A program made the translations under genes and the position numbers. Below, one piece after another: positions 1-50,156 of a stretch of DNA of 64,000 nt. The stretch is from NCBI GenBank assembly GCA_947501005.1, contig CANMTU010000001.1, positions 2,628,501-2,692,500 on the forward strand. Reading direction: 5' to 3'. Each line of letters begins with the position of its first letter. Position 1 is the first letter of the stretch. This DNA is from an uncultured Erythrobacter sp. Its GTDB lineage: Bacteria > Pseudomonadota > Alphaproteobacteria > Sphingomonadales > Sphingomonadaceae. The notes beneath the pieces were generated by a model. It did not search any database, was not told where the DNA came from, and worked only from the letters and a program-made list of their open reading frames with translations.

Positions 1-1449
1 TTTCCCACTTTCCGCACGCTTCCCGAACCGAAGAGCACGCCGCTGGCCGTGCGCCCCGAGGGCGAGCGCGATCCGCTGCCCGAACCGGGGGTGAAGCCGG
101 TGGTGGAGGCGCCGACCATCGTGGAGCGGACCTTGCCGAACGGCATCGAAGTCGTCGCGGCGCAGACCGGCGACGTGCCTTTCGCGACCATGACCGTGCT
201 GGTTCCGGGCGGCTCGCGCTCCGACGATCGGGCCAAGGCCGGCGTGGCCAATCTGTCTGCCATGCTGGCGGACAAGGGCGCCGGCGGCATGGGCGCGCAG
301 GAAATCGCCGCACGCCTCGAAAGCCTGGGGGCCAGCGTCGGCGCCACTGCGGGGACCGACAACAGCTTCTTCAGCCTGACCGCGCCTGCCGCGAACATGG
401 AAGAGGCGGGCGAGATACTCGCGGCGATAATCCGCAGCGCGGATTACCCGGCGGAAGAATTCCAGCGCGAACGCAAGCGCGCGATCGACGGGCTGGAAGT
501 CAGCCTGAAGGATCCGGGGGAACTGGCGCGCATGGTCGCCCAGCCGGTCTTCTATGGCGATGCGCCCTATGGCACGATTGCGGGCGGCACGCAGGAAAGC
601 CTGGCCGCGATCACCCGCGAGGATTTGCTCGCGCATCGGCGCGCCTGGTGGCACCCGAAGCAGACAAAGATCATCGTGAGCGGCGGCATCGCGCCCGATG
701 CGGCGGTCAGCCTGGCAAACGGCCTGTTCGGGGATTGGACGTCCACCGCCCCCGTGCCGCCGGCGATCGACGATGGCGCCGGCAATCCGCAGCCGGTGCG
801 CACCGTGGTGATCGACATGCCCGATGCGGGCCAGGCGGCGGTCTATGCCGGGATCCGGGCGCCTGCGCGTTCGGGCGAGGACTATCTCGCGCTCGAACTG
901 GCCAATGCGGTGCTGGGTGGCGGCTCCAGCGGACGGTTGTTCGAAGAGGTGCGCACGAAGCGCTCGATCAGCTACGGGGCCTATAGCGGCCTGCCCGCGC
1001 GCGCCGACGACGCTTACCTGATCGCCAGCTCGCAGACGCAGAACGCCACTGCCGAAGAGGTGGTGCAGGTCTTTCTCGACGAATTCGACAAACTGGGGAG
1101 CGAAGCCTTCGCCGCCGATCTGATCGACACGCGGCGCCTTTATCTGCTGGGCGATTACGGGCGCAGCCTGGAAACCTCGTCGGGCTTCAACAGCATCGTC
1201 GCCGAACTGTTGATGTACGGGCTCGAGCCGAGCGAAGCAGACAATTATGCCGCCGATCTGCAAGGCGTGACACCCGAAGCGGCGAGCGCCGCAGCGGCGA
1301 AATACATCTCGGCCGACAAGGCGACGATCGTGGTGGTCGGAAATGCGGCCGAATTCCTCGAAGGCCTGCGCGCGATCCGCCCCGATGTCGAAGTGGTCCG
1401 GGCGGACGAGGTGGACCTGTCGCGCGGCGATCTGGGTGCAGGGATGTAG
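1..1449 (+). CDS. M16 (insulinase-like) peptidase, C-terminal part, 5' end outside window
   Basis: The frame is open from the first base, so the gene begins upstream; 482 residues are visible. After a proline-rich linker comes one complete M16 fold, beginning near TLPNGIEVV. It includes the SSGRLFEEVR and SYGAYSG segments typical of the non-catalytic half of two-domain M16 proteins. The zinc-binding HxxEH motif is absent; the matching helix reads GVANLSAML. The catalytic half must therefore lie upstream, or the protein is an inactive partner subunit. Sphingomonad M16 proteins of this kind are usually about 950 residues, periplasmic, with two such domains. The first GTG in the window (base 49) falls inside the linker and should not be taken as the start. 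Confidence 0.85.
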   Translation, partial: FPTFRTLPEPKSTPLAVRPEGERDPLPEPGVKPVVEAPTIVERTLPNGIEVVAAQTGDVPFATMTVLVPGGSRSDDRAKAGVANLSAMLADKGAGGMGAQEIAARLESLGASVGATAGTDNSFFSLTAPAANMEEAGEILAAIIRSADYPAEEFQRERKRAIDGLEVSLKDPGELARMVAQPVFYGDAPYGTIAGGTQESLAAITREDLLAHRRAWWHPKQTKIIVSGGIAPDAAVSLANGLFGDWTSTAPVPPAIDDGAGNPQPVRTVVIDMPDAGQAAVYAGIRAPARSGEDYLALELANAVLGGGSSGRLFEEVRTKRSISYGAYSGLPARADDAYLIASSQTQNATAEEVVQVFLDEFDKLGSEAFAADLIDTRRLYLLGDYGRSLETSSGFNSIVAELLMYGLEPSEADNYAADLQGVTPEAASAAAAKYISADKATIVVVGNAAEFLEGLRAIRPDVEVVRADEVDLSRGDLGAGM

Positions 1450-46203: not shown

Positions 46204-48249
46204 CTAGCCCTGGCGCAAGTCCGGCGGGGTCGCGGCGTCCTTCAGCATGGCGATCGCTTCGTCGAGCGGCATGACCCGCTGGTCCTTCTCGCCCAGCGTG
46301 CGGATGGCGACGGTGCCTTCCTCCGCCTCGCGTTTGCCGATCACGAGCAAATGCGGGACCTTGGCGAGGCTGTGTTCGCGCACCTTGTAGTTGATCTTCT
46401 CGTTGCGCAGGTCGCTTTCCACCCGGATGCCCGCCGCCGCCAGCTTCGCCACCGCGTCGTGCGCGTACTCGTCCGCGTCGGAGACGATGGTTGCAACCAC
46501 CGCCTGCACCGGGGCGAGCCAGACCGGCAGGCGACCGGCGAAATGCTCGATCAGAATTCCGATGAAGCGCTCGTACGAACCGAAGATCGCGCGGTGGAGC
46601 ATGACCGGGCGATGCCGTTCGCCGTCCTCGCCGACATAGCTTGCATCGAGCCGGTCGGGCAGCACACGATCGCCCTGGATCGTGCCGACCTGCCAGGTGC
46701 GGCCGATCGCATCGGTGAGGTGCCATTCCAGCTTGGGCGCATAGAACGCGCCTTCGCCCGGCAGTTCCTCCCAGCCGTAATCGTCGTTCGCCATGCCCGC
46801 TTCGGCCACGGCATCGCGCAGTTCCTGCTCGGCCTTGTCCCAATCCGCCTCGCTGCCGAAGCGTTTCTCGGGCCGCAGGGCGAGCTTGACGTCATAGGTG
46901 AAGCCAAAATCTGTATAGACCTCGTCCGCCAGTTTGCAGAACGCGCGGACCTCCTTCACCACCTGATCCTCGGTGCAGAAGATATGCGCGTCGTCCTGCG
47001 TGAACTGGCGCACCCGCATCAGCCCGTGCAGCGCGCCGTGCGGCTCGTTGCGGTGGCAGCAGCCCATTTCGCCCAGCCTGATCGGGAGATCGCGATACGA
47101 TGTGATGCCTTGCTTGAAGACGAGCACATGCGCCGGGCAGTTCATCGGCTTGATCGCCATCCAGTCCGCATCGGGAGCGACCTGCGGATTGGCGCCCTGG
47201 CCGTCATTGTCGTCACCCAGCCCGTCCACCTCGGGCACGATATCGGGCACGGCGAACATGTTCTCGGCATACTTGCCCCAGTGGCCGGATTGCTCCCACT
47301 GGCGCACGTCCATCAGCTGCGGGGTCTTGATCTCCTGATAGCCGGCGGCGTCCATCTTGCGGCGCATATAGGCTTCGAGTTCACGCCAGATGCGAAAGCC
47401 GTTGGGGTGCCAGAAGACGCTGCCATGCGCCTCTTCCTGCAAGTGGAACAGGTCCATCTCACGGCCCAGCTTGCGGTGATCGCGCTTGGCCGCTTCCTCC
47501 AGCCGGGTGAGGTGGGCTTGGAGCTGCTTCTTGTTGAGCCAGCCAGTGCCGTAGATGCGCGTCAATTGCGGATTGTTCTGGTCGCCGCGCCAGTATGCGC
47601 CGGCCACCCGCGTCAGCTTGAAGGCCTGCGGATCGAGCTTGCCGGTGCTGGCAAGATGCGGGCCGCGGCACATGTCGAGCCAGGCGTCCTTCTCGCCCGG
47701 CCCGCCGCTCCAGTAGACGGTCAGTTCCTCGTCTTCGGGCAGTTCGCGCGCCCATTCGGCCTTGAACACCTCGCCGTCGGCTTCCCATTTCTCGATCAGC
47801 GCTTCGCGGCTCCAGACCTCGCGGTGGAGCGGCTTGTCGGCCCGGATGATGCGGCGCATCTCCTCCTCGATTGCGGGCAGGTCGTCCACGCTGAAAGGGG
47901 CGCGGCTCTCGGGCGCCTTGACGTCGTAATAGAAACCGTCGTCGGTCGCGGGGCCGAAAGTGATCTGCGTGCCGGGGTAAAGCGACTGCACCGCCTCGGC
48001 CAGGACATGGGCGAAATCGTGGCGCGCAAGTTCGAGTGCATCGGCCTCGTCGCGCGCCGTCACCAGCGCAAGCTCGGCATCGCCGTCGAACGGGCGGTTG
48101 ATGTCGCGCAATTCGCCGTCGACCCGCGCGGCGATTGCTGCCTTGGCGAGGCCGGGGCCGATCGCGGCGGCAATGTCCGCCGGGGTGGCGCCTTGTTCCA
48201 CCTCGCGCACCGAACCGTCGGGCAGGCTGATCTTGAGCAATTGCGTCAT
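46204..48249 (-). CDS. thrS: Threonyl-tRNA synthetase
   Basis: A 681-residue class II synthetase. The N-terminal TGS domain is residues 1-63. The editing domain has the HxxxH pair His77/His81 ([10 protein letters not shown]). The core has [10 protein letters not shown] with the zinc cysteine, and motif 2 is around [20 protein letters not shown]. The C-terminal anticodon-binding domain ends the protein. The start at 48249 ([12 protein letters not shown]) is standard; the in-frame extension to 48348 lies in the leader region. The ATG is preceded by a 200-base leader with a Thr-rich mini-gene and overlapping hairpins (see regulatory entries), suggesting control by threonine supply. Confidence 0.97.
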
Positions 48250-48381
48250 GTCGTCATCATCCGTCTTGTCCCGGCGCGCCCTGCCACAACGGGGCGCGCA
48301 CCGGAAGGGCGGTGTCGCGGGCAAATACCGGTTTCGGGGCGAGGACACCGACCGCCCGAAACCGGGCGGCGGGCGCTCGCG
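48250..48381 (-). promoter_or_regulatory. thrS leader with mutually exclusive hairpins
   Basis: Read on the minus strand. Stem A is CCGCCCG (48369-48363), loop GTTT, CGGGCGG (48358-48352). Stem B is CCGGTTTCGGG (48365-48355) with CCCGAAACCGG (48338-48328), a perfect 11 bp that uses the bases of stem A. CGGTGTC (48350-48344) can also pair with GACACCG (48316-48310), which competes with B's loop. Stem D, GCGCGCCC (48299-48292) with GGGCGCGC (48281-48274), ends 24 bases before the thrS ATG. Stem A begins 12 bases after the leader stop. No T-run follows A, B or D, so the outcome may be translational control or factor-dependent termination. Confidence 0.5.
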
Positions 48382-48450
48382 TCAACCCGCGCGCACCCGC
48401 CCCCGGCAGGCCGGGTTGGTGGTCGTGCGCGTGGTGTCGAGCGTCGGCAT
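48382..48450 (-). CDS. Candidate threonine-rich leader peptide for thrS
   Basis: A 22-codon frame, ATG at 48450 to TGA at 48384-48382, beginning MPTLDTTRTTTNP. Six of residues 3-11 are Thr (codons ACG, ACC, ACG, ACG, ACC, ACC). It starts 33 bases after the phoD stop and lies 133 bases before the thrS start, both on the same strand. Ribosome stalling at these codons when charged tRNA-Thr is scarce would leave stem A uncovered and change which hairpin forms. Against it: no clear ribosome-binding sequence precedes the ATG (CTGCCTGCC). Chance clustering of ACC/ACG is possible in GC-rich DNA. Confidence 0.5.
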   Translation of the reverse strand: MPTLDTTRTTTNPACRGRVRAG

Positions 48451-48482
48451 GGCAGGCAGGATACGCCCGAATGCGCCGCCGA

Positions 48483-50156
48483 TCAACCGAGTGCGAGCTT
48501 GCGCTGCCCCGCCAGCGTCGTCAGCCGCTGCGTTCCGGCGACGCCCGAGGTCTTGTCGCGGATAGTGCCGATGAACCGGTATTCGCTGCTCGCCCGCTCG
48601 GGCGTCAGCTCCAGCGCCATGTAACCGCGCCGCGCCGTATCGACCCAGGCAAGCTGCGGATTGGCCTCACGCAGGGTGCGGGCCAGCCGCTCGGGCGGCA
48701 GGGTCGGCAGGTAGCTTTCATATCCCGGCGAGGTGACCGAATGGCCGGCGAACTCGACCCCGGCCCGCTCGCCCGCATGATCGAGATCGAAGCTCCAGCC
48801 ATTATGCGAATCGCCCGACAGGACGAGGAGGTCGGCATCCGCTTCACGTGCGGCGGCCAGCAAGCGGTCGCGCGCGGCGGGATACCCGTCCCACGCATCC
48901 ATGTTGAGCGGCAGTTCCTCGCGCGCCGCCGCCGCGCCAAGGGCGACCCGCCGCCGCACATAATCGGGCACGTCGGCCGGCAGGTTCTCGAGCAGGCCGG
49001 CAGGCGCCGCAAGCTTGCCCATGATCACCTGCTGCGCGAGCACCTGCCACGTCTTGCCCGCCCGGCGCGAGGTTTTCAGCCCGTCGAACAGCCACCCCTC
49101 CTGCGCCGTGCCGAGCAATTGGCGGGCCGGATCGGCATAGGTGCCGTCGCGGAACGCGGCGAAGGCCTGCGCGATCCGTTCCGGTGATCGCTCGCCGCCG
49201 ATCAGGGCGCCGAAATCGAACTGCTCGTCCCGGCCGAGCAGGCGCGTGTCGAGGGCGAAGATCGTCGCCAGATCGCCGATCTCATAGCTCTTGTACGGCG
49301 CGTCCGACACCGGCAGCCACTCGCGATAGGCGCGGATCGCCGCCGCCTTGCGCGCGGGCCACGGCCCCTCGGTGTCGTCCTGGTGATTCTGCGCGCCGCC
49401 CTTCCAGGAATCGTTCGCGCTTTCGTGATCGTCCCACACCAGGATCATGGGATAGAGCTGGGTCAGGCGCTGCAGGTCGGGATCGCGGCGGTAGTCGGCG
49501 TGGCGCAGCCGGTAATCGGCCAGCGCGACGATCTCGGTTTCCGGCGTGAGCACCCGGCCCGGCGCGAACTGCGCGCGCGAAGGATAATTGCCGAACTCGT
49601 ATTCGTAGAGATAGTCGCCGAGATGCGCGACCATGTCGAACGCATTGGTTTCGGCGGCATGGCGGTAGGCGTTGAACCAGCCGAAGCCGATATTGGAACA
49701 GGAGAACACGGCCATTCGCCAGCGTGCGGCCGGCCCCTGCGGCAAGGTGCGGGTGCGGCCGAGATCGGATTGCGAACCGCCGGGCGCGGTGAAGCGGTAA
49801 TAGTACCAGCTGCCGGGCGCGAGACCGGAAACCTCCGCCTTGGCGCACCAGTCGCGCGCCGGAGAGGCGGTGGTCGTGCCCGCCGCCGCCACCCGCCCGG
49901 TCGCCGGATCGGTCACGCGCCATTCGAGCGGGGTATCCTGCGCCGCGACGAAGCGGGTCCACAACAGCACTCCGCTGGCCGAAGGTTCCCCGCTGGCGAT
50001 GCCGTGCGAGAACCCGCGCTGGTTGGCCTGCGCGGCCAGCGGTGCGGCGAGCGCCCCCGCCCCCAGAACCCCCGCCCCCTGCGCGCCGGCCCTGAACAGA
50101 CTGCGCCGATCGAGCGCGGGCAGGCGGGCGGCGGCGGGCGGTGCGGTGTCGAACAT
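48483..50156 (-). CDS. phoD: PhoD-like alkaline phosphatase, Tat-exported
   Basis: A 557-residue phosphodiesterase/phosphomonoesterase of the PhoD family. The N-terminus carries a twin-arginine signal (DRRSLFRAG, Arg17-Arg18) followed by a hydrophobic Ala/Gly stretch, so it is exported folded through Tat. The catalytic domain has the metal-binding wording HLGDYLYEYEFG, LVWDDHESANDSW and LSGDSHNGWSFDLDH, as in the calcium/iron PhoD enzymes. The start at 50156 (MFDTAPPAAA) follows GAGGGGAAC. PhoD frees phosphate from phosphate esters outside the cytoplasm. No Pho box could be identified by eye. Its stop lies just before the thrS leader. Confidence 0.92.
   Translation of the reverse strand: MFDTAPPAAARLPALDRRSLFRAGAQGAGVLGAGALAAPLAAQANQRGFSHGIASGEPSASGVLLWTRFVAAQDTPLEWRVTDPATGRVAAAGTTTASPARDWCAKAEVSGLAPGSWYYYRFTAPGGSQSDLGRTRTLPQGPAARWRMAVFSCSNIGFGWFNAYRHAAETNAFDMVAHLGDYLYEYEFGNYPSRAQFAPGRVLTPETEIVALADYRLRHADYRRDPDLQRLTQLYPMILVWDDHESANDSWKGGAQNHQDDTEGPWPARKAAAIRAYREWLPVSDAPYKSYEIGDLATIFALDTRLLGRDEQFDFGALIGGERSPERIAQAFAAFRDGTYADPARQLLGTAQEGWLFDGLKTSRRAGKTWQVLAQQVIMGKLAAPAGLLENLPADVPDYVRRRVALGAAAAREELPLNMDAWDGYPAARDRLLAAAREADADLLVLSGDSHNGWSFDLDHAGERAGVEFAGHSVTSPGYESYLPTLPPERLARTLREANPQLAWVDTARRGYMALELTPERASSEYRFIGTIRDKTSGVAGTQRLTTLAGQRKLALG

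Follow-up and report, generated by a model that had tools for sequence, protein, structure and literature searches.

A short frame lies at positions 48382..48450 on the minus strand of the window, the whole 64-kb stretch of DNA analysed here. It comprises 22 codons (ATG...TGA) and encodes the 22-aa peptide MPTLDTTRTTTNPACRGRVRAG, ended by its stop codon, in which residues 3, 6, 7, 9, 10 and 11 are threonines. The frame is flanked by the stop codon of phoD (48483) and the ATG of thrS (48249), and all three are on the minus strand. The thrS gene (46204..48249, minus strand) encodes a threonyl-tRNA synthetase (ThrRS) of 681 aa and is the gene presumed to be controlled. The core of the frame is the run ACC ACG CGC ACG ACC ACC (48418..48435, minus strand), the putative control codons, whose threonines are conserved in relatives while third positions vary synonymously. 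The preliminary description had recorded a 22-codon frame with six Thr in residues 3-11, on the same strand and in the interval between phoD and thrS, and all of this was confirmed.

Conservation of the threonine-rich frame

The thrS gene was present in 144 of the 149 family genomes sampled; 30 of these 144 entered the analysis as loci, 100 were fetched and 14 were left out, and one genome scan supplied another 80 named loci. From 111 loci and 100 additional stretches, up to 500 nt of sequence upstream of thrS were taken, giving 204 distinct regions, one of which (L055) had only 131 nt and six of which (L106-L111) belonged to other families. An ORF with a Thr run, defined as at least 4 Thr in 8 residues, was found in 70 of the 204 regions, mostly at about -235 to -120 from thrS, and was absent from the other 134; a few of the 70, such as L165 and L211, are doubtful. 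The alignment check proposed in the preliminary description thus turned out in its favour, the ATG, the stop and the Thr codons being kept with synonymous change in relatives. The leaders, 68 in total, contain 4 to 13 Thr each and usually follow the pattern M....TTTTTTT(P/R/S/G)..RGR.VA, with the stop directly after it. Rows with irregular or missing hairpins, doubtful frames or, in the duplex-scan set, near-copies were dropped, so that 59 rows were used in alignment A1, 41 in A2 and in the covariance model, 48 in A3, 66 for the promoter (without L041 and L165), 66 for codon entropy, 54 in the short-arm duplex test, 56 in the pair scan, 57 for the U-tract and 58 for ribosome folding.

A chance origin of the ORF was rejected. 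Counting ORFs in which at least 6 of 8 residues were the same in the 300 nt before thrS, Thr was found in 44 of 197 regions and any other residue in 3 at most on the sense strand. Under the same rule the reverse-strand control reached 28 for Val, an excess taken to be antisense reading of the same AC-rich tract. Outside the family, thrS was present in 101 genomes, 60 of which supplied one upstream region each; two of these regions (L255 and L261) held an ORF with 4 or more Thr in 8, the corresponding values being 12 for Ala and 11 for Arg. The Thr-rich ORF of L261, MRTHPVLRSTATTTTTATGGRWRMRA, which belongs to another alphaproteobacterial family, stands about 326 nt before thrS and is possibly an independent Thr leader.

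Within the Thr run of 66 leaders, the entropy was 0.43 bits at the first codon position, 0.41 at the second and 1.60 at the third, and all four Thr codons were used. Variation confined to position 3 is what selection for threonine itself would leave. As judged by this comparison, the leader frame is real and conserved. As a separate observation, ACT is rare in thrS (36 of 957 Thr codons) and makes up 96 of the 467 Thr codons of the 68 leaders, where it is perhaps a tuned slow codon.

Distribution among relatives

A covariance model of the leader, built from 41 sequences, found a single match in the genome of the window, namely the thrS leader. Across the order, 81 of 296 genomes matched, each in one place and all within the family; within the genus, 20 of at least 23 genomes matched. 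In all 32 family loci checked (L212-L243), some of which had supplied the model, thrS adjoins the match. In the class, 2 of 289 genomes gave weak matches that lie outside the family (E 0.005 and 0.097), with no thrS in the locus. On a tree of 106 ThrRS sequences, the leader label needs 12 changes, compared to 33.7 when labels were shuffled (0 of 500 shuffles as low). The leader is carried by 36 of 42 rows in the clade that contains the named Erythrobacteraceae, and also by L037, which had been mislabelled as without. Scattered cases occur in Sphingomonas, Novosphingobium, Sphingopyxis and Blastomonas, and most named loci of Sphingomonas, Sphingobium and Sphingopyxis are among the 134 leader-less regions. 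This distribution would fit an old origin with losses as well as several gains.

A predicted promoter that would place the transcription start on the ATG

Upstream of the frame we identified a predicted promoter, P1, consisting of a -35 element TTGATC (48481..48486, minus strand), a 17-nt spacer and a -10 element TATCCT (48458..48463, minus strand), followed after 7 nt by the ATG (48450), which puts the predicted +1 at the first base of the ATG. P1 matches the consensus in 8 of 12 letters, which is under the threshold of the standard promoter scan, and that scan listed no promoter at this locus. The -35 element overlaps the phoD stop codon, and the predicted promoter is therefore partly within the neighbouring gene.

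The same layout was recovered among relatives when the best -35/-10 pair was picked by score, ignoring the start codon, with shuffled upstream sequences as control. Of 66 leaders, 55 had a 17-nt spacer (9.3 after shuffling), and in 55 the first in-frame start lay 6-7 nt past a TA-type -10 element (2.7 after shuffling). The leader mRNA probably starts at its AUG, as a leaderless message. The preliminary description had regarded the lack of a visible ribosome-binding site as the weak point of the frame; that lack was corroborated by eye, no Shine-Dalgarno-like sequence preceding the leader ATG in the window, and the conserved promoter places the predicted transcription start on the ATG itself, so that such a site is probably unneeded.

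A distinct, proximal element of the type TTGNC-16..19-GCATA was present in 37 of the 134 leader-less regions (0.7 shuffled) and in none of the 68 leader-bearing ones, as if the leader promoter and the proximal promoter layouts replaced each other. A bypass promoter shared by leader-bearing species was thus unsupported, given the 0 of 68 for the proximal pattern.

Competing helices and a conserved pseudoknot

The RNA that follows the Thr run can be divided into five segments with alternative partners. Hairpin 1:2 (CCCGGcctgCCGGG, 48402..48415, minus strand) lies just 3' of the Thr run; its typical form, CCCCGGnnnnCCGGGG, takes in the last Thr codons. Arm 2 (CCGGGGGCGGGTGCGCGCG, 48388..48406, minus strand) is within the last leader codons, and arm 3 (CGCGAGCGCCCGCCGCCCGG, 48362..48381, minus strand), which begins directly past the stop codon, may pair with either arm 2 or arm 4. 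Pairing with arm 4 gives hairpin 3:4 (CCGCCCGgtttCGGGCGG, 48352..48369, minus strand), which is terminator-like and has no U-tract. The loop and the 3' arm of this hairpin (CGGTTTCGGG, 48355..48364, minus strand) can in turn pair, as helix 4:5 or pseudoknot stem 1, with segment 5 downstream (CCCGAAACCG, 48329..48338, minus strand). A second stem pairs GGCGTC with GACGCC (in the window CGGTGTC, 48344..48350, with GACACCG, 48310..48316, both on the minus strand), and interleaves with 4:5 as an H-type pseudoknot.

Covariation was strongest for this pseudoknot. It was scored in 48 of the 68 leaders: of 707 cells 91.5% were paired, 10 of 15 pairs were double-changed, and there were 49 double-change cells compared to 13.5 in shuffled alignments (0 of 500 reaching the count), the score dropping at once when the partners were slid by 1 to 3 columns. 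The geometry suggests that both stems form together; they may also be alternatives. Helix 2:3 had 75.1% of cells paired and double changes in 12 of 18 pairs, with 39 double-change cells (23.2 shuffled), a cell count that 0 of 500 shuffles reached. Hairpin 3:4, with the consensus GCC(G/A)CCCGGtttCGGG(C/T)GGC and an uninterrupted stem averaging -15.1 kcal/mol, was 94.0% paired and showed 13 double-change cells versus 5.0 shuffled (0 of 500), or 22 versus 12.8 in a wider alignment; the number of its double-changed pairs was not above the shuffled value (2 vs 1.7, and 4 vs 4.7 in the wider alignment). The mutually exclusive helices 2:3 and 3:4 are therefore both supported by covariation, in the case of 3:4 through cell counts. 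Support for hairpin 1:2 was moderate, with 81.4% of cells paired in A1 and 9 double-change cells versus 4.4 shuffled, a value reached by 11 of 500 shuffles; within the species of the window it gave no signal (z 0.0).

A structure-free scan, in which the duplex energy of a sequence with itself was compared to that of crossed sequences over 592 pairs of scan windows in 56 sequences, ranked as best pairings 4:5 (z -6.5), stem 2 (-4.7), 2:3 (-3.7) and 3:4 (-3.0). In a simpler own-versus-cross duplex test with a short arm 3, 4:5 and 3:4 were favoured in 50 of 54 sequences each, and 2:3 gave no signal (29 of 54), unlike in the covariation analysis and the pair scan; a few hairpin picks (e.g. L027, L043 and L121) were atypical in this test and in that for the U-tract. 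Taken as a whole, the 241-nt leader was no more stable than its shuffles (z -0.16; 84 of 200 as good), and RNAalifold returned a sparse consensus for the full leader. Codon usage in the RGR part of the peptide points in addition to a constraint at the RNA level, as expected if arm 2 is under selection: GGG accounts for 63 of 123 leader Gly codons (51%) and 224 of 1,981 in thrS (11%), and CGG for 131 of 220 leader Arg codons (60%) and 293 of 1,944 in thrS (15%).

Nearer to the thrS start there is a hairpin-like element D (48274..48301, minus strand), which carries the TTGTGGCAG version of a conserved TGTGCCATGG-like motif and for which support was weak: in the structure-free scan it reached z -2.6, below the other pairings, and its fold had z < -1.5 in 9 of 60 cases. 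Near the thrS start, 42 of 66 regions with a leader have the motif T[GC]TG[CG]CA (1.0 after shuffling), compared to 10 of the 134 others. One leader, L041, is placed at -119 to -50 with thrS within 50 nt, and the part with the hairpin and the pseudoknot is missing; the sequence is a metagenome assembly and the missing part is possibly an artefact.

Modelled ribosome positions and the output step

The 58 leaders suited to this analysis were folded with a masked ribosome at different positions, and arm 3 was scored as held by upstream sequence when the probability exceeded 0.5. With the ribosome at the first Thr this was so in 38 of 58 leaders, at mid-run in 56 and at the last Thr in all 58; it was so in 39 without ribosome and in 3 with the ribosome at the stop codon, the latter value being partly a result of masking arm 2. 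For the leader of the window, the probability rose from 0.44 at the first Thr to 0.79 in mid-run and 0.85 at the last Thr, and was 0.003 at the stop codon and 0.45 without a ribosome. In 42 of 58 leaders the run's last Thr is followed by the stop codon at a distance of 11 codons; in the window this distance is 12. In these models, then, the position of the ribosome would select the helix, a stalled ribosome leaving arm 2 free and one at the stop codon covering it. With downstream sequence included, the minimum-energy fold of the window's own RNA in the stop state was of the 4:5 type and not 3:4, which implies that 3:4 must act during transcription, if at all.

A textbook intrinsic terminator at 3:4 was rejected. 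None of 57 leaders had at least 5 T in the 8 nt directly after the hairpin (mean 2.3, with 1.7 at random leader places), none of 58 had at least 5 T in any 8 of the following 18 nt, and a consensus terminator scan of 48200-48700 returned none. A perfect-stem rule detected only 2 U-tract terminators in the whole 64-kb window, so other modes of termination may be common here.

The preliminary description had read the frame as the leader of an attenuator. That reading is supported, competing helices of the attenuator type following the frame; intrinsic termination was unsupported, the hairpin being without U-tract, and to the original picture the covariation adds a conserved pseudoknot, unseen in that description. 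With no U-tract after the hairpin, we do not file the element in the class of intrinsic-terminator attenuators, and say, from its sequence features, that the thrS leader would work like a ribosome-mediated attenuator.

A candidate sensor of charged tRNA-Thr

We consider it likely that the element is a Thr-tRNA-sensing leader-peptide RNA switch that tunes thrS according to how far tRNA-Thr is charged. Transcription would start at or next to the ATG, and a ribosome would load on the nascent RNA without a Shine-Dalgarno sequence. When charged tRNA-Thr is short, this ribosome would stall within the Thr run, leaving arm 2 free to capture arm 3; arm 4 would then be left to segment 5 and, together with stem 2, would form the pseudoknot, so that transcription or mRNA use would proceed into thrS. 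When charged tRNA-Thr is ample, the ribosome would reach the stop codon and cover arm 2, hairpin 3:4 would form and thrS expression would be cut. This proposal is built on a comparison in which the frame, its Thr codons and the promoter spacing are conserved and 2:3, 3:4, 4:5 and stem 2 covary, and from which we infer translation of the leader, stalling and the direction of control. The low-expression state would end transcription, through the tail-less hairpin or with Rho; more broadly, the exit step may rely on a terminator without tail, on Rho or on an effect after transcription.

The possible output steps differ in what they make of the hairpin and the pseudoknot. In a classical transcription attenuator, 3:4 would be a true intrinsic terminator and the pseudoknot a by-product of read-through RNA. 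The stability of 3:4, its covariation and its competition with 2:3 speak for this, and the rarity of strict U-tract terminators in the 64-kb window means that weak tails may be usual; we nevertheless find it rather doubtful, since the U-tract was found in 0 of 57 and 0 of 58 leaders and since a simple terminator leaves unexplained why the strongest covariation falls on a pseudoknot past it. About equally doubtful is a version with Rho, in which the pyrimidine-rich stretch of segment 5 (TCCTCCC-like) would be open for Rho when threonine is replete, and would be folded away by the pseudoknot under starvation, so that thrS would be transcribed. Such a role would explain both the selection on 4:5 and stem 2 beyond hairpin 3:4 and why a U-tract is unneeded, but the pyrimidine stretch of segment 5 is short.

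It is unlikely that the leader ribosome instead picks the fold of a full-length mRNA and thereby alters thrS translation or decay. Both folds do take in sequence far beyond 3:4 and there is a conserved motif near the thrS start; against this, the pseudoknot lies about 60-115 nt upstream of the thrS ATG, and the pair scan gave no strong pairing with the thrS start (best about z -1.9). Finally, it seems highly improbable that the frame is no sensor at all and that selection maintains the AC-rich tract solely for RNA structure or for some other protein function, for while the last Thr codons can pair in 1:2 and the RGR codons look RNA-constrained, all four Thr codons are used with 1.6 bits of wobble entropy against 0.4 at positions 1-2, the Thr run reaches 5' of hairpin 1:2, start and stop are kept, and thrS is the gene in 32 of 32 family loci checked.

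In L016, the leader (MAKATITTTTNTTSGNRGRSVAA, followed by its stop codon) and the switch look intact about 600-720 nt before thrS, and an ORF starting MRYYIDTEFNGTGG stands between them and thrS. Locus L016 offers a natural experiment on the target of the switch.

Relation to known systems

A T-box or any other Rfam family was rejected: neither the window nor loci L003, L016 and L117 gave a match that reached the gathering score, and two matches were at chance level. The open-licence literature searched yielded no Thr leader for an alphaproteobacterial thrS, in agreement with the preliminary description, which knew of none; outside the alphaproteobacteria, a leader does precede thrS in Streptomyces lividans. 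There, according to the available part of the report, thrL is a leaderless 18-aa frame directly before thrS (PMC8079986). The S. lividans system resembles the present one in having a leader peptide before thrS, leaderless, with one hairpin and no U-rich sequence; it differs in that its leader MKRVRPFLETTPGFVPAR has two Thr versus 4-13 here and in that the organism belongs to a different phylum, and the accessible text describes no antiterminator, pseudoknot or conservation (PMC8079986).

Among alphaproteobacteria, trpL of Sinorhizobium meliloti is, in the portions of the sources at hand, likewise an RNA that begins at the leader ATG and adopts competing structures, but its 14-aa leader has Trp codons and it precedes a biosynthesis gene, trpE, and not a synthetase gene (PMC7298713, PMC10117765). 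SEP5 of Sinorhizobium, as far as the available text describes it, is a short ORF that lies in a 5' UTR, contains six Thr codons and was proposed as a possible leader peptide; unlike the thrS leader, it also has three Lys codons, near its 3' end, stands before an aspartate dehydrogenase gene and is conserved only in Sinorhizobium (PMC10117765). In Caulobacter crescentus, for which 375 leaderless mRNAs were reported, a small translated CDS precedes a synthetase gene too; that gene is trpS, however, and in the available text no switch is described and 'thrS' is absent (PMC4117421).

The actinobacterial LEU element before leuA shares a leader peptide with cognate codons and a conserved pseudoknot but concerns Leu and leuA, its stem joining the Leu codon run to the leuA Shine-Dalgarno box in the accessible part of the description (PMC1262725). 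A conserved pseudoknot after the leader, as in the LEU element, is present here in the form of two interleaved covarying stems; for pairing of the LEU type with the codon run, the structure-free scan, which covers the sequence from 36 nt upstream of where the leader stop codon ends and not the full Thr run, found no strong match.

In the E. coli attenuators of thr, his, leu and pheST, a cognate-codon leader and arms 1-4 go together with a Shine-Dalgarno sequence before the leader and with intrinsic termination at a hairpin plus U-tract. The thrS leader shares the cognate-codon leader and arms 1-4, while the Shine-Dalgarno sequence and the U-tract are missing. For E. coli thrS, the operator is tRNA-like, and the synthetase bound to it blocks access of the ribosome; no leader peptide is involved. 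Control of thrS is exerted there in the mRNA leader, as it would be here. Examined for a tRNA-Thr-like hairpin, element D shows a TGTGCCA-like motif, the variants of which do not all keep UGU. Autoregulation by E. coli ThrRS is also mentioned in the available part of a published text (PMC2965389). The kind of system is thus known and, as far as these searches reach, its combination of Thr, an alphaproteobacterial thrS, a leaderless start and a pseudoknot without U-tract is new.

A possible related leader before leuA

At six leuA loci (L310-L315, L314 being from the genome of the window), a Leu leader stands about 190-280 nt upstream of leuA. The leaders, for instance MQRDLLLRLIRPWA in L313 and MIARPGLPLRLMRPWA in L314 (the latter by eye), each followed by a stop codon, end in CGCCCTTGGGCG, and a downstream complement, CGC(C/T)CAAGGG, is present; in L310, inspection by eye shows compensating differences on the two sides. 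A -10-like CATAGC is found 6-7 nt before the leader ATG in L313 and L314. No U-tract was noticed in the leuA leaders and no Rfam match was obtained in L311-L315. Upstream of trpE, no ORF with at least 2 Trp in 8 was found in 10 genomes.

These observations accompany a more specific version of the proposal, offered tentatively and with somewhat more doubt than belief: a ribosome stalled in the leaderless Thr leader would toggle between the pseudoknot and the tail-less hairpin, the pseudoknot itself setting thrS expression free of any terminator, possibly with another form before leuA in the same bacteria.

Implications

If true, the switch would be an answer to the problem of thrS control unrelated to the textbook protein-on-mRNA autoregulation of E. 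coli. It also suggests a rule for detecting overlooked leader peptides in alphaproteobacteria, namely to search 6-7 nt past a -10 box and to require no ribosome-binding site. With a covarying pseudoknot in the place of a U-tract terminator, how, or whether, these GC-rich bacteria end attenuated transcripts would become directly testable.
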